This document shows, in pieces, positions 4,129-34,856 of a stretch of DNA of 38,516 bases. The position numbers were made by a program, and so were the translations under genes. Each line of letters begins with the position of its first letter. Position 1 is the stretch's first letter. This stretch comes from an uncultured bacterium (lineage in GTDB: Bacteria > Oederibacteriota > PGYV01 > Palsa-1178): NCBI GenBank assembly GCA_937889595.1, contig CALAOR010000068.1, forward strand, positions 1 to 38,516. The letters are read 5' to 3'. The notes beneath the pieces are model-generated. The model saw only the letters and a program-made list of their open reading frames with translations, did not search any database and had not been told where the DNA came from.

Positions 4129-6648
4129 TTAAACACCTCTCTCGGCAAGGTTAATTACCGTTTTCCAATAGTCTTGTGTTATTTTATATTCATTTTCGCG
4201 TATTGGTATATCTTTGTTCGTATCTGATGTGGCTATCCAGTATGCAACCCTATCAGCACGGACCTGTACAAGGTTCTTTTCGTTACCACACATATAAAAA
4301 GCTTCCGAATATAAGCCCTTTACCTGTTTGAGCGTGGTAATTATGCCCATTTCATTTTCATTAAGCCTGTAAAGTTCTTTTATTAACGGAAGATCCTCCG
4401 AACTTTGATGAAAAAGCGTTTTTGTTGGAGCTGATGTAAGGACCTTCTTTGCCTCCTCGTTACATAAAAAATCACTTAGCTGTTGTGTCGCTATGATAGA
4501 AGCAAGGCCCAAATGACGGCTTCTTTTCCCAAGGTCGAGCAGAAAGTTCTGCCCGCCTGAAAATCTGGCCAGAAACCAAGCCTCATCAATTACCAACAGT
4601 TGTCTTTTTTGTAATTTTTTATTGATTTTAAAACGCTGCATTGAAAAATTTGATATTATGTAAATGCCCAGGGAAAGGATATCATCCCTGTTGGCCGGTA
4701 ACCCGGATATATCAAATACGACAAAGGAACTTTTCAGTTCAATGTTGCTCGGCCGATCGAGCATACCCGCAAAAGAACCTTCTCCAATGAAAGGACTGAA
4801 TTTTTCTTTGATATCAAGCAATTGCTCTTTGTGTTTCTGTGATTCTATTGTTTCAATAAATTCATCAATAACCACCAAAATATCCCTTAAAAGAGGTATT
4901 GTCTTCCTGTCAATAATTTTATTACCCGTTTTATCTATTATGAATTTAAGTTTATTTTTGTACATTTTACGGACCATTTTTTCCGCAAGCCCGGATTCCA
5001 CCTTACTTAACCTTGACACTCCTTCTTCGGAAAGAATAATGTCAAATAACCCGGTTATATAAGCAATTTTATTTGGGGTAGGATCGCCTTTAACCGTGAT
5101 GTCATTTTCGTCACCGTGTTCGTTAATAAGCGCCGGGTCATAATCAATACAGTCGAAGGGATTGTAACTGCAGGTACCGTCAAGTGATAGTGTTATGTAT
5201 TGTCCGTCATTACACTTACAGTTATATTCATATGATTTGGATTTGTCAATTATGATCACTTCCGGCCGCCATGGAGCAATTCTAGTCAATATAAGATTGA
5301 TAAAAAATGATTTACCCGAGCCTGGCCGTCCTACAATTATATGATTGTTATTCTCAACAGCTGGATTATAGGGTCCATAAAACACAGATTTACCTGTTAA
5401 ACTTGTTCCTATATAAACACCGGCATCTACTTTTTTGACTTCAAAATTAAAAGCCGGCATTAGGTATGAAAGATTGCCGTCTGTACGATCCCCCGGACTC
5501 CCTGTAATTGTAAGGTAATAATGTCCGGCCGTGTTGTGACATAAAGGAAGCGTAGAAAGAAATAATTTCTTTTGTTCAAAAATTCCAGGATAATGTGTAC
5601 AGCCCTCAATAATACTTTCAAACTCCGGTATTAATTCCTCAAAAGCATCCCGATTTTCATGTCTAAAACTCAAGTAGCAGGCAAATTCAATAAATTTAAT
5701 TTCACGTCTTGCCTGAGCCGATAATAATATCTCAGTATTATCAGCAATTGCCCTATTGTCAATATCGGTTTGTTTTTCACTTGTTCCCAGGGCAAGTTTT
5801 AATTTATTAGTCAATTGTTCTTTAATTTCGTGCTGTGATATACCGCGAACAAATAAAGACAACGTGGAATAATTATTTATAAGAAACAATTCCTGCAAAA
5901 AATTGGGTTGTGAAGGTATGTCAGCAATATAAAAAGTTTTTACGTGTTGTTCTCCAATCATGCCCATGGCATTTTCTTCACTGAAAGGGGTCCTTATCAA
6001 TGAACTTTTTAACGTATTAAACGATTGTCTTAAGTGGTCTACCGGTATTTTTCCTGTTTGTTCTGGATTAAATGCCTTATCGAGCATGTCCTTGATCTGT
6101 TGTTCGGTCATTTCAACTACTTCAACACCCGATATCTGCCCCATAAAGCCCACAAAGCCCCTGCTTCTGTTTGAAATATTGCGCCTTAACGTTGCCGTAT
6201 CTTTTTTAATTTCTGTCGATTTTATTGTTTTAGTAAACAGGTTGGTTTGTTTTCTGTATGTAAAAAGGATATAAATATTTTGTTCGCAAATTCTCTCACT
6301 GCGAACAAAGTCAGTAATGAACTGATCAAGTATATTGGGATAATAATTTTGAAATTCAGGAACCGGGTGGTTTTTAATAATTCTTTCGTTATATTTAAAA
6401 ATATCCGGTTCAGGATCATACTTTTCGGTTTGAATTACAATTTGTACTTCTTCACCGGCTTTTAAAGTATTTAACGCATTTCTAAAACTCAAAGTAGCCT
6501 GGTCAAGTTGGGCTTCGGCGGCTGTAAGGGTATTAATACCACCGTTTAGCTTAAAGCATATTATTGGAGTATCACTTTCGTCAATAATATAGCCATCTCC
6601 AAAATCTTTAAAATTAATTAAATCCTGAAAAGCTAAATTTTCATTCAT
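4129..6648 (-). CDS. virB4: VirB4/TraC-family conjugation ATPase
   Basis: 839 aa. An N-terminal VirB4/CagE-type region is followed by a RecA-like ATPase domain with Walker A GRPGSGKSF (residues 440-448) and Walker B LLVIDEAWFL (Asp688, Glu689). A DISGL strand and the ATQQLSDFL segment typical of the family are also present. The protein powers assembly and function of the type IV secretion channel at the inner membrane. Its start overlaps the end of the VirB3-like gene (ATGA), and its stop abuts the VirB8-like start, so the three are translated as one block. The length is normal for the family and the key residues are intact. Confidence 0.95.
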   Translation of the reverse strand: MNENLAFQDLINFKDFGDGYIIDESDTPIICFKLNGGINTLTAAEAQLDQATLSFRNALNTLKAGEEVQIVIQTEKYDPEPDIFKYNERIIKNHPVPEFQNYYPNILDQFITDFVRSERICEQNIYILFTYRKQTNLFTKTIKSTEIKKDTATLRRNISNRSRGFVGFMGQISGVEVVEMTEQQIKDMLDKAFNPEQTGKIPVDHLRQSFNTLKSSLIRTPFSEENAMGMIGEQHVKTFYIADIPSQPNFLQELFLINNYSTLSLFVRGISQHEIKEQLTNKLKLALGTSEKQTDIDNRAIADNTEILLSAQARREIKFIEFACYLSFRHENRDAFEELIPEFESIIEGCTHYPGIFEQKKLFLSTLPLCHNTAGHYYLTITGSPGDRTDGNLSYLMPAFNFEVKKVDAGVYIGTSLTGKSVFYGPYNPAVENNNHIIVGRPGSGKSFFINLILTRIAPWRPEVIIIDKSKSYEYNCKCNDGQYITLSLDGTCSYNPFDCIDYDPALINEHGDENDITVKGDPTPNKIAYITGLFDIILSEEGVSRLSKVESGLAEKMVRKMYKNKLKFIIDKTGNKIIDRKTIPLLRDILVVIDEFIETIESQKHKEQLLDIKEKFSPFIGEGSFAGMLDRPSNIELKSSFVVFDISGLPANRDDILSLGIYIISNFSMQRFKINKKLQKRQLLVIDEAWFLARFSGGQNFLLDLGKRSRHLGLASIIATQQLSDFLCNEEAKKVLTSAPTKTLFHQSSEDLPLIKELYRLNENEMGIITTLKQVKGLYSEAFYMCGNEKNLVQVRADRVAYWIATSDTNKDIPIRENEYKITQDYWKTVINLAERGV

Positions 6649-6983
6649 TTGTTTTCCTCATTTTTGTTATGGTCTATAACCGCTTTGAATAACTCACTAT
6701 CGTAATTGATCTCGTTTTTTGGTAAATAAACCCGCTGTCTGTTTGTGTAAAATATAATCATATTGATAAAATAACTGGGTGCTAATATATTTTTATATTT
6801 AAAATAAACCCACAAGGGCGCTATAATTAAAATCACAATTATAAAAGCCGGAACAACACCAATAACTGGTATAAGGTTTACGGCAATTAAAAGGGTAAAA
6901 CAAGATATACCTGCGAGTATGTAAAAATCAAAAGCCGGCAGATTGAACATTACTTTTGGTTTGTCGTTTAGGTTAATAGCCAT
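6645..6983 (-). CDS. VirB3/PrgI-like membrane protein
   Basis: 112 aa. Two adjacent hydrophobic helices (about residues 18-38 and 42-62) are followed by a short soluble tail with TNRQRVYLPKNE. Size, the two-helix hairpin and its place directly before VirB4 are those of VirB3 and PrgI proteins, which anchor the VirB4 ATPase to the inner membrane. It overlaps VirB4 by four bases. The assignment rests on topology and gene order rather than on a conserved motif. Confidence 0.7.
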   Translation of the reverse strand: MAINLNDKPKVMFNLPAFDFYILAGISCFTLLIAVNLIPVIGVVPAFIIVILIIAPLWVYFKYKNILAPSYFINMIIFYTNRQRVYLPKNEINYDSELFKAVIDHNKNEENK

Positions 6984-13792: not shown

Positions 13793-13818
13793 GGCCCGCC
13801 GCAAGGCGGGTTTTATTA
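13793..13818 (+). terminator. stem-loop terminator, possibly two-way
   Basis: CCCGCC-GCAA-GGCGGG followed by TTTTATTATTTT on the plus strand. On the minus strand it lies just after the HTH gene, with a weaker T-run. The strong T-run faces plus-strand transcription, although no gene is seen there. Confidence 0.6.
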
Positions 13819-14031
13819 TTTTATGCCCTGCCTATTATTCTGTTCCTCAATACTTACACCGTATTTTTTTGCTACCTTTTTAAGCCTTGCTATTACTGCT
13901 TTGTTATTAGGTATTGTTTCTTTGCCAAGCCAATTATACAGAGTTTCCCGACTGATATATAATTCTTCAGCAAGTTTTGTTTTATGTGGTTGTACCTTCA
14001 GTATTTTATTTAGTATTTCTTTCACTTGCAC
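13816..14031 (-). CDS. small helix-turn-helix DNA-binding protein
   Basis: 71 aa from a GTG at 14031, with a second possible GTG two codons on; GGGGGAA just upstream is the likely ribosome-binding site. The protein has a Cro/XRE-like helix-turn-helix, KTKLAEELYISRETLYNWLGKETIPNN (about residues 17-43), and a basic second half. It is probably a transcriptional regulator. It lies between the CRISPR-like array and the transfer operon and has a good promoter of its own (14062-14090), so it may control either. Its target is not shown by the sequence. Confidence 0.75.
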   Translation of the reverse strand: MQVKEILNKILKVQPHKTKLAEELYISRETLYNWLGKETIPNNKAVIARLKKVAKKYGVSIEEQNNRQGIK

Positions 14032-14061: not shown

Positions 14062-14090
14062 ATTATACCTTATTAATGTAGGTCATTCAA
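14062..14090 (-). promoter_or_regulatory. sigma-70-like promoter of the HTH gene
   Basis: On the minus strand TTGAAT (14090-14085), a 17-base spacer, and TATAAT (14067-14062). It points at the HTH gene and its -35 box overlaps the degenerate last repeat of the CRISPR-like array. Confidence 0.6.
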
Positions 14091-14321
14091 GCCCTTTCAC
14101 ATGCGCGCGAGTTACAACAGATACATACATTGCCAACGTCATGACTTACGTAGTCACAATCTACACCTGCGCGCGAGTTGCAACTCTCGTTATAATTTAA
14201 ACGTTATATATTTAGGTCTTTGTCACAATCCGTACCGACGCGCGAGTTGCAACTACTTTCAACGGTGTGGAATGTACCATAAGCTATCTGTCACAATCCG
14301 TACCGACGCGCGAGTTGCAAC
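14087..14321 (-). CRISPR. short CRISPR-like array: four repeats, three spacers
   Basis: The 32-nt repeat occupies 14290-14321 and 14222-14253 (identical), 14153-14184 (degenerate centre) and 14087-14118 (mostly its last 14 bases). On the minus strand it begins GTTGCAACTCGCGCG and ends GGATTGTGAC. The spacers are 36 nt (14254-14289), 37 nt (14185-14221) and 34 nt (14119-14152). Decay of the leftmost repeats implies the leader is on the right, beside the nuclease gene, giving minus-strand transcription. The 36-nt spacer matches 34801-34836 in this element at 31 of 36 bases. No cas1 or cas2 is visible. Iterons are the main alternative, but the regular unique spacers and the match argue against that. 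Confidence 0.77.
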
Positions 14322-14322
14322 T

Positions 14323-14350
14323 TCGGCCAAAAAATCACCTCTATTATAAG
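14323..14350 (-). terminator. terminator-like hairpin with embedded TATAAT between nuclease and array
   Basis: On the minus strand ACCTCT-TATAAT-AGAGGT is followed by GATTTTTT, a good intrinsic terminator for the nuclease gene. The loop is an exact TATAAT (14343-14348), which could instead be the -10 box of the array promoter, with a start about 15 bases before the first repeat. I see no good -35 box. Confidence 0.6.
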
Positions 14351-14376
14351 AGGTTATCTTTTGACCCGGCGCGAAC

Positions 14377-15705
14377 CTACCCAGTTTGGACTTTTTGTTT
14401 GACGTTTCGTTGACTGCCCTTAAAAGCGCTAATCTCCACGTCCGTTAATTTGGCGGTGTGCCCGCCTATTATCTCTATGTGCTGTCTAAGACCGATGTTT
14501 TTGATATTAATTGCCGCGTTCTCATCACGGTCTAAGACCGCTCCGCAGCTGCTACACGTCCATGACCTATCACGTAATGTCAGTTCCGCGTTCTTGTGGC
14601 CACAATGACAACAAATTTTGCTTGTCGGCGCGAACCTGTTTATCTGGATCAAGTTGACCCCGTACCAATTGCACTTATATTTAAGCTTGTTTATAAAACT
14701 TGTCCAAGACACGTCCGATATTGATTTTGCGAGCTTATGGTTCGCGAGCATACCCTTTACGTTAAGGTTCTCAACCACAATCGTCCGCACTTGGTTATCA
14801 TGCGTAAGTTTGTAACTGAGGTTATGTGCAAAGTTTTCGCGAACCCGTACAATCTTTTCATGGAGCCGGGCAATCTTCCTTTTCTGTGCTAAAAATCTGT
14901 TACTTTTGACTGACCCTTTCAACATACCCTTACGTCTTGCTAAGGTTTGTTGTAACCGATGAAATTTCTTTTCATACTTTTTAAGTGTTTTAGGATTTTT
15001 AATTTTTTCCCCGGTGCTTAACGCGATCATATCAATAAGGCCGAGGTCAAGTCCGATTGTCTTGGCCGGAGTTATTTTTGATACTGACAATGGCTTGTCC
15101 AGCGTGTCAACCATTATGCTGACATAATACTCGCCGCTCTTTGTCCTGGACACGGTGAGGTTGCGGATCTGACCCGTAAAATGTCGGGATAATATTACTT
15201 TGATAGGCGTGTCAATACGCGGTAGTGTGATTGTGTGTGTCTGCCAGTTCACGTATTGGCGAGTATGTGTGCTCTCATATGTCCGATAACTTTGCTTGTT
15301 GCCGTGCTTTTTTTTGCGCTGCGGAAATCCCGCGTCCTTGCCTGTAACACCTTTTTTCAATCTTGTAAAAAAATTTTTGTAAGCTGTTTGCAGATCGCCC
15401 AGGGATTGTACAAGCGCCATGGCCTCGATTTCATTAAGCCAGGGCACTTCCGGGTTCTTTTTAAATTGTGTTAGTTCATTTGATAATTTGTAAGCATTAA
15501 ATTTAGGCCGGAGTTTTTTGTACTGTACTTCCGTCATTTCCCCGGATTCAAGTTTTGGTTTAAATTCCTTTTCAAAGTCCTCATACGCCTTATTGGATTT
15601 AGCAAGCGCCCAGTTATAGATATAACGACATGAACCAATAGTTTTATTGATCTGTGTTGCTTGATCTTCTGTTGGGTACAGCCTGTATTTAAAAGCTTTA
15701 AGCAT
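14377..15705 (-). CDS. TnpB/Cas12-like RuvC nuclease beside the array
   Basis: 442 aa from the ATG at 15705; GGGAG lies eight bases upstream, and the longer reading from 15765 has no such site. It starts MLKAFKYRLYPTEDQ, as in IS200/IS605 TnpB. The RuvC centre is intact: Asp in TIGLDLGLIDMIAL, Glu in IVVENLNVKGML, Asp in LDRDENAAINI. A zinc finger, CCHCGHKN then CSSCG, lies between the last two. TnpB proteins are RNA-guided DNA nucleases and the ancestors of Cas12. No TnpA gene or IS605-type end is evident here. A CRISPR-like array begins 56 bp past the stop, so this may be a type V-U-like effector rather than a transposon gene. By sequence alone it reads as a normal TnpB. Confidence 0.85.
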   Translation of the reverse strand: MLKAFKYRLYPTEDQATQINKTIGSCRYIYNWALAKSNKAYEDFEKEFKPKLESGEMTEVQYKKLRPKFNAYKLSNELTQFKKNPEVPWLNEIEAMALVQSLGDLQTAYKNFFTRLKKGVTGKDAGFPQRKKKHGNKQSYRTYESTHTRQYVNWQTHTITLPRIDTPIKVILSRHFTGQIRNLTVSRTKSGEYYVSIMVDTLDKPLSVSKITPAKTIGLDLGLIDMIALSTGEKIKNPKTLKKYEKKFHRLQQTLARRKGMLKGSVKSNRFLAQKRKIARLHEKIVRVRENFAHNLSYKLTHDNQVRTIVVENLNVKGMLANHKLAKSISDVSWTSFINKLKYKCNWYGVNLIQINRFAPTSKICCHCGHKNAELTLRDRSWTCSSCGAVLDRDENAAINIKNIGLRQHIEIIGGHTAKLTDVEISAFKGSQRNVKQKVQTG

Positions 15706-16192
15706 TTGTTGCTCCCTTACTATCTTGTCAAACACTTTACAATATAAAACCTCAAAAGTCAACAACTATTTGTTAGCCTCATGGGGATTATTTAAGACAT
15801 TAAAGCGTATTACTTTTCTTACTTTTCCGTTTACGGTCAGGACCTTATGGGATTGGCCCGCACACAAGACGGAAATTACCTACTTTATAATTGTACAACA
15901 AAAACATTGTTTTAACCATACAATTTATCTAAACATTATTTAGCCTGTTAAGGCTGTTTAGTTTGTTTCATAAAAACGCCATGGCTTGGTTCAGGGGAAC
16001 CCCCTGCTTTTTAGGGGGGAGGACCCCTATATACTTTCTCGGTTCGAGTTTTTTCACATTTAGGTTGCGTTTGGTCTTGCCGGGAGCTAATTTTATCTTT
16101 AAATAAAATTGAAGCCCCCGGACAAGTGGTTTACTGGCGAGTGACACTCTCGATCAGTGCCAATTCCAAAAACATAAACTCAAATCCTTATA
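15706..16192. other. non-coding region with hairpins
   Basis: No convincing gene. It holds a small palindrome CAGGGGAACCCCCTG near 15993, and a longer imperfect hairpin near 16080-16125 (CCGGGAGCTAATTTTAT paired with ATAAAATTGAAGCCCCCGG). At 16136-16144, GCGAGTGAC is complementary to nine bases of the candidate small RNA at 16445. Any promoter for the nuclease gene should be here, but I see none that is close to consensus. Confidence 0.4.
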
Positions 16193-18472: not shown

Positions 18473-18829
18473 TTAAACCTCCTGTTATTGTTTTAAAACC
18501 CGCCAATGAACTCGTCCAAATCGCGTACATTCTGTACCGATTTGGGCGAGTTCATACTTAGCGGCAGGCGGAAAAGGTTATATACTCGTGGGCAAGGTAT
18601 AAAAATTATTTGCGGGTTTAATGGCGCGGAGCTCGCTGGCGAGGCCGTGACAGGCAAATTATTTTTATACCTTGCCTGTCAACTCATCATTAACCGAGCG
18701 GAAAAGTATGATCAGGCTTTTAAGCGACAGCAATAACCCGGCCGGAGCCGGGATTATTGCCGAGCGCCGCAACCGTCGCTTTTCCGGGATAATGATGGCA
18801 TCAGAACTTTTTCCGCCTGCCGTGCCTTT
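18473..18829 (-). repeat. ~358-bp structured leader repeat, copy 1
   Basis: Nearly identical to 21361-21719, and like it ends with AACAAT-ACAGGAGGTTTAA just before a small gene. It is rich in nested inverted repeats: a 48-nt hairpin at 18507-18554; a 22-nt arm at 18591-18612 pairing with 18655-18676; arms GGCAGGCGGAAAA and TTTTTCCGCCTGCC near the two ends; and AATAACCCGGC/GCCGGGATTATT inside. Two base pairs of the 48-nt hairpin differ between copies in a compensated way, which points to selection on the fold. It could be a regulatory 5' leader RNA or a single-stranded DNA site. Confidence 0.8.
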
Positions 18830-21837: not shown

Positions 21838-21958
21838 CCCCGCGGCCACGGGGCCTTTGAAACTTTCCCGGTTGTCCGCAGGACAGCCGATGTCTTTTGC
21901 AGACGACCGCAGGGCGGCTGATGTAGTACGCGATCGGCGGTAGGCGATCGATGTCTTC
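21838..21958. repeat. multi-hairpin module, copy 1
   Basis: Order of parts: a GC hairpin (CCCCG/CGGGG), then CCTTTGAAACTTT, a hairpin GGTTGTCC-GCA-GGACAGCC, GATGTCTTTTGCAGA, a hairpin around CCGC/GCGG, GATGT, and a hairpin CGATCG/CGATCG followed by GATGTCTT. The linkers recur at 22753-22853 and 23331-23453 while the stems change. The upstream bases 21720-21837 hold two more strong stems (AAGGAAAT/ATTTCCTT and CCAGGGGGTT/AACCCCCTGG). Confidence 0.7.
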
Positions 21959-21960
21959 AA

Positions 21961-22700
21961 CAGCCGGGGACTACAGGTTCTTCCCCGGCTGTAAAACTCC
22001 GTGCCTTATACGGCGCGTCTACTACGCCGCATGCTCTTATGAGGCGGCCATGAGAGCCGCCGAATACTTCAACAGCCGGGGACTATAGGTACTTCCCCGG
22101 CTGTAAAACTCCGTGCCTTATGCGGCGTGTCTACTTACGCCGCATGCTCTTATGAGGCGGCCATGAGAGCCGCCGAATACTTCAACAGCCGGGGACTACA
22201 GGTTCTTCCCCGGCTGTAAACTCCGTGCCTTATGCGGCGTGGTCCACTTACGCCGCATGCTCTTATGAGGCGGCCATGAAAGCCGCCGAATACTTCAACA
22301 GCCGGGGACTACAGGTTCTTCCCCGGCTGTAAACTCCGTGCCTTATGCGGCGTGGTCCACTTACGCCGCATGCTCTTATGAGGCGGCCATGAAAGCCGCC
22401 GAATACTTCAACAGCCGGGGACTACAGGTTCTTCCCCGGCTGTAAACTCCGTGCCTTATGCGGCGTGGTCCACTTACGCCGCATGCTCTTATGAGGCGGC
22501 CATGAAAGCCGCCGAATACTTCAACAGCCGGGGACTACAGGTTCTTCCCCGGCTGTAAAACTCCGTGCCTTATGCGGCGTGGTCCACATACGCCGCATGC
22601 TCTTATGAGACGGCCACATGAGCCGCCGAATACTTCAACAGCCGGGGACTACAGGTTCTTCCCCGGCTGTAAAACTCCGTGCTTTATGCGGCGCATGCCG
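21961..22700. repeat. seven-fold ~113-bp tandem repeat made of three hairpins
   Basis: Units begin at 21961, 22073, 22186, 22299, 22412, 22525 and 22639, with spacings of 112-114. Each unit has three stems: CAGCCGGGGA/TCCCCGGCTG, ATGCGGCGT/ACGCCGCAT and GGCGGC/GCCGCC. Units 3-6 are almost identical and the outer ones diverge; the last unit is incomplete. No reading frame runs through the unit and 113 is not a multiple of three, so it is not a protein repeat. A diverged relative with a different stem (CAGTGGGA/TCCCACTG) follows at about 22709-22734. Confidence 0.85.
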
Positions 22701-22752
22701 CATGTTTCAACAGTGGGAATATAAGGGCTCCCACTGTGCTTTAATAATTTTG

Positions 22753-32271: not shown

Positions 32272-32282
32272 ATGTTTCCTAT

Positions 32283-32384
32283 CCTTTCTGGCCACAAGTG
32301 GCCACTTCTTCGATGTTTTCCCTGTTCCGGGTAATTTACAGGCCTTAAATCGGCTCCTGGTGATTCCCCGGATAGCGTCCTATG
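32283..32384 (-). repeat. ~100-bp gene leader repeat R1
   Basis: Differs from R2 (33010-33111) at only three positions. It contains the palindrome TGGCCACAAGTGGCCA just before the ribosome-binding site and a possible stem CCGGG/CCCGG enclosing CAGG/CCTG. It precedes the gene starting at 32271. Confidence 0.8.
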
Positions 32385-32412
32385 GCCGCTATGAGCTGCA
32401 GGCGGCCGCTTT

Positions 32413-33000
32413 TTATGATTTATGAAATTTAATAGCTTGCTCCATATCGTCGGTAGCACCTTTAGGGTCGTGCATCATGATTTTTGCATTGGCTCGGCCG
32501 CTATAGGCTTCTTCATATTTAGGATTTAGTTCTATTGCTTTGTTATAGTCAATGAGCGCGCCTTTATAATCATTAAGTTCTTCTTTTGCAAATCCTCGGT
32601 CATTATATGCTTCAAAACTATTTGGATTTATTTTAATAAAATCGTCATAGTCTTTAATTGCTTCAATGTAATTTTTGTCTAAGATTTTAGAAAATAGTGT
32701 TCGTAAAGTTGGTTTTTCTGATGGGTGTGAAAATAAGCTAAATGCAAGCAAAGTAAGAAGACAAGATACAACTGAAACCCAATTAAAGAAGTATCTAGGT
32801 TTGGATTTGCACATATTCATAAAATCTGTTTTAGATTTTTCCTTAATCTCAGACATAAACTCTTTAGATCCAAGTTCGTTAGTTATTAATGACCGCCCGA
32901 TTAATTTTTCAACATAATGAGTATATGTATCATAATCCTCACCGGCACTAAACATTACTCCTGTAAAAGCGGTTGCTATTGCTTTTTCTTGTTTTGTCAT
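32413..33000 (-). CDS. membrane-anchored TPR protein
   Basis: 195 aa: a soluble start (MTKQEKAIATAFTGVMFSAG), one membrane helix (FFNWVSVVSCLLTLLAFSLF, about residues 71-90), then at least two TPR motifs (YIEAIKDYDDFIKINPNSFE, then GALIDYNKAIELNPKYEEAY). TPR domains bind proteins, so it may be an assembly or scaffold factor at the membrane. It lies between two leader repeats, next to a VirB8-like gene. Confidence 0.8.
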   Translation of the reverse strand: MTKQEKAIATAFTGVMFSAGEDYDTYTHYVEKLIGRSLITNELGSKEFMSEIKEKSKTDFMNMCKSKPRYFFNWVSVVSCLLTLLAFSLFSHPSEKPTLRTLFSKILDKNYIEAIKDYDDFIKINPNSFEAYNDRGFAKEELNDYKGALIDYNKAIELNPKYEEAYSGRANAKIMMHDPKGATDDMEQAIKFHKS

Positions 33001-33009
33001 ACGTTACTT

Positions 33010-33111
33010 CCTTTCTGGCCACAAGTGGCCACTTCTGCGATGTTTTCCCTGTTCCGGGTAATTTACAGGTCTTAAATCGGCTCCTGGTGATTCCCCGGAT
33101 AGTGTCCTATG
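33010..33111 (-). repeat. ~100-bp gene leader repeat R2
   Basis: Second copy of the leader, immediately before the TPR gene start at 33000. It is nearly identical to R1, while the genes that follow differ after their first few codons. Confidence 0.8.
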
Positions 33112-33117
33112 ATCATT

Positions 33118-33693
33118 TCAAATTCTGTCTGATATTTCCTCAAATCCTTCTTCTTTGACTATTTTTCTATTATCTTCAATTAGTTTTCCTTCAATTGATT
33201 TTATTTCATACATTGTTTCCATATTATCAATTTTCAAATCACCATATTTATCTTTGACAAAGGATAATGTTGTTGTTATATCCGTTGGGTCTGTAATTTT
33301 GTTGTTTTTAGTAGAAGCATAAGTAATAATGCCAAGTACTTTAATTGTCATTGTATTATTAATCATTTTTTTATAAAACCTTTTGTATTCATAATTTGAT
33401 TTAAACCTGCTTGCTGTGATGTTTGAGTATGTTTTATTGTCAAAAACCTCTTTATAATGTTTTAAAAACTCCGGGGTCATTAATAACATGAGTTTTTGGT
33501 GGTTGTCTACTGCCGATGTTGGCGTGTTATTATAAAACAAATTACAAAATTCAATTGCCAATCGTTTTCCTTGCAAAGTATTTTTTGTATCAGTCAGCAT
33601 AAGTTTTGGTAAGAAAATGGAACTTATTAAGATACCTAAAATTATCCCGCTGTAAATAAAAGATTTCGGCAAATTTTCGTTTGCGTTTTTCAT
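33118..33693 (-). CDS. second VirB8-like membrane protein
   Basis: 191 aa: a short cytoplasmic start, one membrane helix (FIYSGIILGILISSIFL), and a periplasmic domain. MTPEFLKHYKEVFDNKTY followed by TIKVLGIITYASTK parallels MTPELLSEYKENFYDNAF followed by AIKIIGLAKYTSTI in the operon copy at 3502. Both have a similar helix-domain distance, so they are paralogues of the VirB8/TrbF type. It sits away from the other channel genes between leader repeats R2 and R3, and could be an alternative subunit or a transfer inhibitor. Confidence 0.65.
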   Translation of the reverse strand: MKNANENLPKSFIYSGIILGILISSIFLPKLMLTDTKNTLQGKRLAIEFCNLFYNNTPTSAVDNHQKLMLLMTPEFLKHYKEVFDNKTYSNITASRFKSNYEYKRFYKKMINNTMTIKVLGIITYASTKNNKITDPTDITTTLSFVKDKYGDLKIDNMETMYEIKSIEGKLIEDNRKIVKEEGFEEISDRI

Positions 33694-33704
33694 TTGTTCT
33701 CTCT

Positions 33705-33795
33705 CCTGGCCACAAGTGGCTACTTCTTTGATGTTTTCCCTGTTCTGGACAACTTACAGGACTTAAACCGGCTCCCGGTGATTCTCCGGACACGT
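33705..33795 (-). repeat. ~100-bp gene leader repeat R3, diverged
   Basis: Third copy, before the VirB8-like gene at 33693. It keeps TGGCCACAAGTGGC, GATGTTTTCCCTGTTC and the CGGCTCC-GGTGATTC block but has about 20 differences from R1 and R2, several of which keep the possible stems. Confidence 0.7.
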
Positions 33796-33797
33796 TT

Positions 33798-34037
33798 TTA
33801 TCGGAAATGTCGTTTATAATTTGTGTAAGTATGTTTTAATGATTTTTTTTTAATTCCTACACTACCATATATATTATTGTTATAAATATCTCTTATATCA
33901 AATCCAAAAGTAATTGCTGTGAAAAAAGCTTGTGTTGAACGTATAATTATATAAATCCACATAAACATAAATGCCCATATTCCAAATGCTTTTTTGAATT
34001 TTTTGTATAATTTTTGTCTGTTTGTTTTTTTTATCAT
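33798..34037 (-). CDS. small membrane protein
   Basis: 79 aa from the ATG at 34037 (AGG upstream; an in-frame TTG at 34058 has no better site). It has a basic start (MIKKTNRQKLYKKFKKAFGI), one or two membrane helices (WAFMFMWIYIIIRSTQAFFT) and a basic end. The function is unknown. Confidence 0.55.
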   Translation of the reverse strand: MIKKTNRQKLYKKFKKAFGIWAFMFMWIYIIIRSTQAFFTAITFGFDIRDIYNNNIYGSVGIKKKSLKHTYTNYKRHFR

Positions 34038-34045
34038 AATAAAAC

Positions 34046-34540
34046 CTACTCTACCCAATAAATAATTCGTATTTCTTTCGGTAAACCTTTGGTCTTTAAT
34101 TCGTTGAGAAGACTATATAAATGTGAAGCAAAAATTTTATACGGTACAAATTGACCTTTTGGATCATCAAAATCAGCATTGGCCATAAGCTTATTATTTT
34201 CATCGCCAAATATTTGTACTTTTTGAGCTGACAATTGTTCCCAATCAAAATCCAACAACTCTGTTAATGTGTGCCAACCGTAAATACAATGATCCTCATC
34301 ACGTTCTTTATTAAAATATTGTTTTGCTTCGCTGCTTATATCTTTTGGTAATTTAAATTCATGTAAAGGTTCTATGAATTTGATTGATTTATCAAGTGAA
34401 TAGGCCCCTAAAAGACCACACGTATATGAATCATCTCTTGAATAGACTACACCTTTTTCATCATAACCAAAACCAAAATCAGACGGAATCCATTCATTGT
34501 TTTTTAGTACTTCACAGTATATTGTTATTGCTTTAGCCAT
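34046..34540 (-). CDS. hypothetical protein, 164 aa
   Basis: Soluble and rich in aromatic and acidic residues (SDFGFGYDEKGVVYSRDDSY, FDWEQLSAQKVQIFGDENNK). The pattern suggests a phage- or plasmid-type structural or accessory protein. It overlaps the previous gene by eight bases. I recognise no family. Confidence 0.6.
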   Translation of the reverse strand: MAKAITIYCEVLKNNEWIPSDFGFGYDEKGVVYSRDDSYTCGLLGAYSLDKSIKFIEPLHEFKLPKDISSEAKQYFNKERDEDHCIYGWHTLTELLDFDWEQLSAQKVQIFGDENNKLMANADFDDPKGQFVPYKIFASHLYSLLNELKTKGLPKEIRIIYWVE

Positions 34541-34856
34541 TATGTTTTTCTCCTTCTTCGGGCGGTGTGTTTTTAAGTCTTGCTATCGGTGCAAAAACAT
34601 ACCCGAGGTTTATTGTCTTGTCTGTCGGTGTTATTATACCGGCTGTAAGTAACGCCAGGTACATGCCGCTATTTTCTGCGTAGTCCTTAATGATAACCTC
34701 GTTAACAGCAAGCGTTACTTCCGGCACGTTAATTGTTGCTCTAGCATAAGGCCCCTCCGCGTCCCAAAGCTGCAGCCCTGTCCTGCCATTTTCGTATTTT
34801 AGATAACTTATAGTACATTCTACACCCTTGAAAATAACTTTGTTGTTTGTTGTCAT
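34533..34856 (-). CDS. DUF4313-like mobile-element protein containing the matched protospacer
   Basis: 107 aa (MTTNNKVIFKGVECTISYLK, then GRTGLQLWDAEGPYARATIN and NEVIIKDYAENSGMYLALLT, ending near LGYVFAPIARLKNT). This resembles small proteins of the DUF4313 type spread over phages and conjugative elements; the function is unknown. Codons 7-19 contain the sequence matched by a spacer of the array at 14254-14289. The spacer would encode nearly the same peptide (IFNGVECTISYL-like), so it came from a homologue of this gene. Confidence 0.65.
   Translation of the reverse strand: MTTNNKVIFKGVECTISYLKYENGRTGLQLWDAEGPYARATINVPEVTLAVNEVIIKDYAENSGMYLALLTAGIITPTDKTINLGYVFAPIARLKNTPPEEGEKHNG
34801..34836. 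other. protospacer-like match to the 36-nt CRISPR spacer
   Basis: 31 of 36 bases equal the spacer at 14254-14289 in one gapless alignment. Four of the five differences are at third codon positions, and three are silent in the gene. On the plus strand the match (AGATAACTTATAGTACATTC) is preceded by TATTTT, a T-rich 5' flank. Confidence 0.85.

Follow-up and report, generated by a model that had tools for sequence, protein, structure and literature searches.

The origin of CRISPR effectors from transposon nucleases is an active question, and type V-U systems contain TnpB-derived nucleases beside CRISPR arrays. TranC nucleases such as LaTranC, reportedly described by Jin et al. (Cell 2025), are said to combine a nuclease of the TnpB lineage with a CRISPR array, the omegaRNA being functionally split into a tracrRNA and a crRNA. 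Solo TnpBs are common. Two phage TnpBs have been found to adjoin CRISPR arrays (PMC12607003). In the structure of ISDra2 TnpB, the loop of omegaRNA stem 1 forms a pseudoknot with the bases just before the guide; the motif of this enzyme is TTGAT, for which residues K76, F77 and Q80 are needed, and the guide length used was 16 nt (PMC10097598). For Cas12n (V-U4), the PAM is AAN according to a review.

We analysed a stretch of 38,516 nt from an uncultured bacterium (contig CALAOR010000068.1), here called the window, which carries a nuclease gene followed by a CRISPR array. Pfam, NCBIfam and PDB matches and full-length TnpB homology identify the nuclease as an IS605-type TnpB. Its closest natural solved protein in the PDB is ISDra2 TnpB (2e-65), ahead of LaTranC (3e-30, C-terminal part only) and Cas12f (1e-7). 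The likeness to ISDra2 TnpB comprises the full-length similarity, the C-terminus with RuvC and zinc ribbon, and a predicted omegaRNA core with stem 1, stem 2 and pseudoknot. In contrast to ISDra2 TnpB, the window protein has about 27 additional residues in its N-terminal (REC) part and altered TAM-reading residues, and the 3' end of its putative scaffold is repeated as a CRISPR array. With TranC the locus shares an array beside a TnpB-lineage nuclease and a repeat corresponding, as judged from sequence, to the 3' portion of the scaffold that this nuclease would use; the protein is much closer to ISDra2 TnpB than to LaTranC and would represent a separate lineage. The best PADLOC profile is Cas12u4 (1.7e-81), with a Cas12f profile close behind (2.2e-79). 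Type V-U4 (C2c9, Cas12n) also resembles the locus in its compact effector adjoining an array and in the lack of a detected Cas1 in the genome, whereas NCBIfam places the window protein under guided TnpB and the flank discussed below has TTTT in place of AAN, as a single site and not a measured PAM. No tnpA-like ORF was found beside tnpB in the ORF list of the window. TnpB-derived nucleases beside arrays are already known, and judged by these protein comparisons the window locus lies on a branch close to ISDra2 TnpB.

The array has four repeats on the minus strand, directly downstream of tnpB:

14377..15765, minus strand: ISDra2-like TnpB of IS605 type, carrying a zinc ribbon and the RuvC motifs; translation probably starts at the ATG at 15705
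14290..14321, minus strand: repeat R4, proximal to tnpB, ending in TGTGAC
14254..14289, minus strand: spacer 3 (36 nt), matching 34801-34836
14222..14253, minus strand: repeat R3, identical to R4
14185..14221, minus strand: spacer 2 (37 nt), protospacer search negative
14153..14184, minus strand: repeat R2, a variant
14119..14152, minus strand: spacer 1 (34 nt), protospacer search negative
14086..14118, minus strand: degenerate terminal repeat R1, at the distal end of the array

The most decayed repeat, R1, is the one farthest from tnpB, which fits the addition of new units on the tnpB side. Outside the array, the repeat is absent from the host genome (99% complete), and Cas1, which the host search for cas genes covered, was not detected; the repeat was also not found in viral contigs. 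Directly downstream of the array (about 13816-14031, minus strand) lies a 71-codon helix-turn-helix gene resembling CI repressors, whose sigma-70-like promoter (TTGAAT/TATAAT, 14090-14062) overlaps R1.

The 3' end of tnpB and the region up to the array contain the following predicted RNA elements:

14452..14466, minus strand: omegaRNA stem 1, GGCGG-GCACA-CCGCC, whose loop would pair with the 3' end of the repeat
14401..14443, minus strand: omegaRNA stem 2 (GACGU ... ACGUC); GGAG and GAAAC are conserved here and in relatives
14369..14392, minus strand: candidate anti-repeat AGUCC-AA-ACUGG-GUAGGUU-CGCGC, spanning the tnpB stop codon
14325..14367, minus strand: long terminator-like hairpin separating tnpB from the array; it includes a T-run and has TATAAT inside it

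The omegaRNA core at the 3' end of the window tnpB is conserved, and its stem 1 loop GCACA predicts the partner TGTGA. In relatives, loop and partner covary (GGAAC/GTTCA, GGAGC/GCTCA and GGACA/TGTCA), and the partner is usually followed by C. The minus strand from tnpB through the array has TGTGAC nowhere but at the 3' ends of R4, R3 and R2, where it forms the final six bases and a spacer follows directly. An automatic scan that was blind to the array found the partner of loop GCACA nowhere within its range except where R4 and R3 end. In ten TnpB loci including the window, every one of the 13 scaffold pairs can form in each sequence, and 11 of them vary on both sides, a result that none of 500 shuffles reached, although the segments were picked partly by pairing and are thus biased towards structure; the window on its own gives the fair test. 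Here the chance of four paired bases plus the A at the repeat boundary is, by our own arithmetic, about 1 in 1000. The window loop has a G-C to C-G change that is compensated in its partner and absent from the other relatives examined. These pairings indicate that the repeat supplies the 3' end of the guide scaffold of this TnpB. Such a role would fix both the direction of the array, on the tnpB strand, and its pairing with the nuclease. The preliminary description had derived the same direction and pairing from the flank of a matched site; both hold, but on the strength mainly of the tnpB-repeat pseudoknot and the decayed distal repeat, not of the flank.

A repeat:anti-repeat duplex can be drawn in the expected place, and 100-127 of 1000 shuffles (10-13%) were equally stable; the anti-repeat at the tnpB stop codon is only suggestive. 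GGTTCG at the same stop codon was considered as a pseudoknot partner and rejected, as it does not pair with loop GCACA. An Rfam search gave no match.

These results led us to postulate that the locus encodes a CRISPR-associated TnpB with a split omegaRNA, a TnpB-to-CRISPR intermediate of TranC or type V-U kind on a conjugative element, and we consider this reading likely. In a tracrRNA-like manner, the 3' end of tnpB would provide stem 1, stem 2 and the probable anti-repeat, which make up the 5' portion of the scaffold, and the repeats would provide its 3' part, ending in UGUG-A-C and closing the pseudoknot just before the guide. R4 could act in cis, giving an ordinary omegaRNA with spacer 3 as guide, and guides 2 and 1 would be delivered in trans by R3 and R2. 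The hairpin at 14325-14367 may mark the end of the tnpB transcript or the start of an array transcript. Against a split omegaRNA count the duplex energy, which is not clearly better than that of shuffles, the terminator-like character of the hairpin, and the related TnpB loci examined, none of which carries an array.

The array might instead be an orphan whose own effector is absent, lying by accident beside an ordinary IS605-type TnpB, with the T-rich flank arising by chance. Orphan CRISPR arrays exist, TnpB is very abundant on plasmids (835 records), and the hairpin separates the gene from the array. However, the 3' end of the repeat is exactly what the stem 1 loop requires, the 1 in 1000 coincidence estimated above, and the genome has neither a detectable Cas1 nor a second copy of the repeat. 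We regard an orphan array as quite improbable.

Spacer 3, read in the direction of tnpB, is AGATAGCTTATGGTACATTCCACACCGTTGAAAGTA (14254-14289, minus strand), and it matches a site elsewhere in the window:

34795..34800, plus strand: TATTTT, the 5' flank of the matched site and candidate PAM, with the spacer read in the tnpB sense
34801..34836, plus strand: site matched by spacer 3 (31/36), inside a 107-aa ORF of the minus strand
34533..34856, minus strand: target gene, the 107-aa ORF, encoding a small protein whose family has members on plasmids and in phages

The site, AGATAACTTATAGTACATTCTACACCCTTGAAAATA, is identical to the 36-nt spacer at 31 positions and differs at spacer positions 6, 12, 21, 27 and 34. 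Among 400 shuffled versions of spacer 3, the best match anywhere in the window had 12 mismatches and the mean was 14.6; the best window matches of spacers 2 and 1, with 12 and 13 mismatches, respectively, are at background level. The imperfect spacer match near 34796-34836 that had been noted in the preliminary description is therefore confirmed, with 5 mismatches against 12 for the best shuffle. The target gene belongs to an unnamed small-protein family with a motif like NEVIIKDYxEN, present on archaeal and bacterial plasmids and in phages; it has no Pfam family, and its PHROG match is weak and of unknown function. In the frame of this ORF, four of the five mismatches fall at third codon positions and three are synonymous. 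The source of spacer 3 is thus most likely, as these codon positions suggest, a homologous gene on a related mobile element. Homologues of the target gene on other elements have 15-17 DNA mismatches to spacer 3 and are too distant to be the source. No usable protospacer was obtained from viral contigs (spacers 1 and 2 and a degenerate spacer 3 pattern), from the host genome (spacers 1 and 2), or from plasmid and phage collections (whole array as query); blastn matches at E 0.2-0.9 in these searches were taken as chance.

Two of the mismatches, 6 and 12, lie in the initial 16 nt, and 16 nt was the length of guide employed with ISDra2 TnpB. Because of their position in this guide portion, self-cutting of the resident copy would probably be reduced, which makes the self-protection proposed in the preliminary description plausible.

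R4 and spacer 3 could instead be no more than the 3' end of an ordinary omegaRNA scaffold and its only guide, with R3 to R1 as decaying tandem duplications of that end and not a working array. R4 does lie after the omegaRNA core in cis, where it gives a complete normal scaffold, and repeat decay increases away from tnpB. Decay by duplication fits poorly with R3 being identical to R4, with spacers that are wholly different and of CRISPR-like lengths (34-37), and with a spacer 3 that matches a gene elsewhere on the element and not a donor site. We judge this explanation unlikely.

The plus strand flank of the matched site is TCGTATTTT. The preliminary description had reported TATTTT as the 5' flank in the tnpB sense and AAAGT in the opposite reading, both of which are correct, and had taken the former as a Cas12-type PAM. 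The T-rich flank is present, but a PAM would rest on one diverged site. TTTT occurs at 3.0% of plus strand positions and 1.5% of minus strand positions of the window, and at least 5 T in 6 nt at 4.5% and 2.0%, respectively. On the strand of the target gene (34533-34856, minus) the flank codes as CTA AAA TAC; the Lys codon fixes only the Ts at -2 and -3, so that the first and fourth T are free to differ in the true source. As PAM evidence, TATTTT at one site in a diverged relative of the true source is weak; it is modest because the site is single, the motif is loosely defined and there were two readings to choose from. The comparison proposed in the same description, with flanks of protospacers of the other spacers or of relatives' arrays, yielded no second site and no array in any of the relatives examined. 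Its premise that most Cas12 enzymes need a T-rich motif was too general here, since V-U4 is listed with AAN and ISDra2 TnpB with TTGAT.

TATTTT may accordingly mean nothing as a PAM, the enzyme using another motif and the Ts reflecting a Lys codon in T-rich sequence, and this would be compatible with a split omegaRNA. Such a view agrees with the single site, the background frequency of TTTT and the AAN given in a review for V-U4, the nearest typed profile. On the other hand, alignment to ISDra2 TnpB shows that K76, F77 and Q80 are replaced by A, M and V, respectively, in the window TnpB, so a motif other than TTGAT is expected. In addition, TTTT also lies immediately 5' of the target inferred for the closest nuclease relative encoded in the same genome (contig C12, 44% identity): AATTTTAC is followed by AATGACG, with a register uncertain by 1-2 nt. 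We come down slightly against a meaningless flank, and a T-rich PAM is a fair guess, somewhat better than even. With a split omegaRNA, this TnpB would be expected to cut targets that carry a 5' motif, possibly T-rich, beside the stretch matched by the guide.

Related TnpB loci were examined for arrays, and none was convincing. A period-66 repeat about 0.8 kb past the gene at one locus (L028) looks coding or of low complexity, is without spacers, and was not accepted as an array. In the genome that contains the window, contig C12 (loci L002/L023, about 5700-6800, minus strand) has a second TnpB at the 3' end of a gene. Its upstream flank holds a recoded copy of the end of that gene, and the same coding stretch is matched, with a few differences, by the predicted guide; this looks as though a homing element had restored the gene while evading its own guide. 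On an E. coli IncI-gamma/K1 conjugative plasmid (L034, 1501-2676), a solo TnpB lies between psiA (SOS-inhibition) and ardA, and a related gene is present in many E. coli and Salmonella plasmid records.

The surrounding, plasmid-like element carries genes for a RepA-like initiator, ParA/ParB, a TraG/TraD coupling protein and a VirB4-like ATPase. It also contains seven copies of a tandem unit of about 113 nt (CTTCAACAGCCGGGGACTACAGG...) at 21955-22701, two near-identical 268-nt copies at 18562 and 21452, and, at 32282-33802, three 103-nt direct repeats (around TGGCCACAAGTGGCCAC) that lie in gaps between small ORFs and are 81-100% identical. Because the element has replication, partition and conjugation genes, a role of the array system against competing elements is reasonable. 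The split-omegaRNA system would likely attack such competitors, with the resident copy partly protected by mismatches 6 and 12.

The locus may also record an independent and very young TnpB-to-CRISPR transition, in which the omegaRNA still ends, in cis, in the first repeat, and from this repeat the array expanded on a conjugative element in a Cas1-less host, gaining a spacer against a rival. We hold this to be rather doubtful; if true, it would show the state before full splitting of the guide RNA. For the split omegaRNA, a repeat whose last bases appear to be dictated by the guide-RNA loop of the nuclease, with a compensating change, offers a clean test of the guide-splitting model. The locus also hints at conjugative elements turning such systems on related elements.
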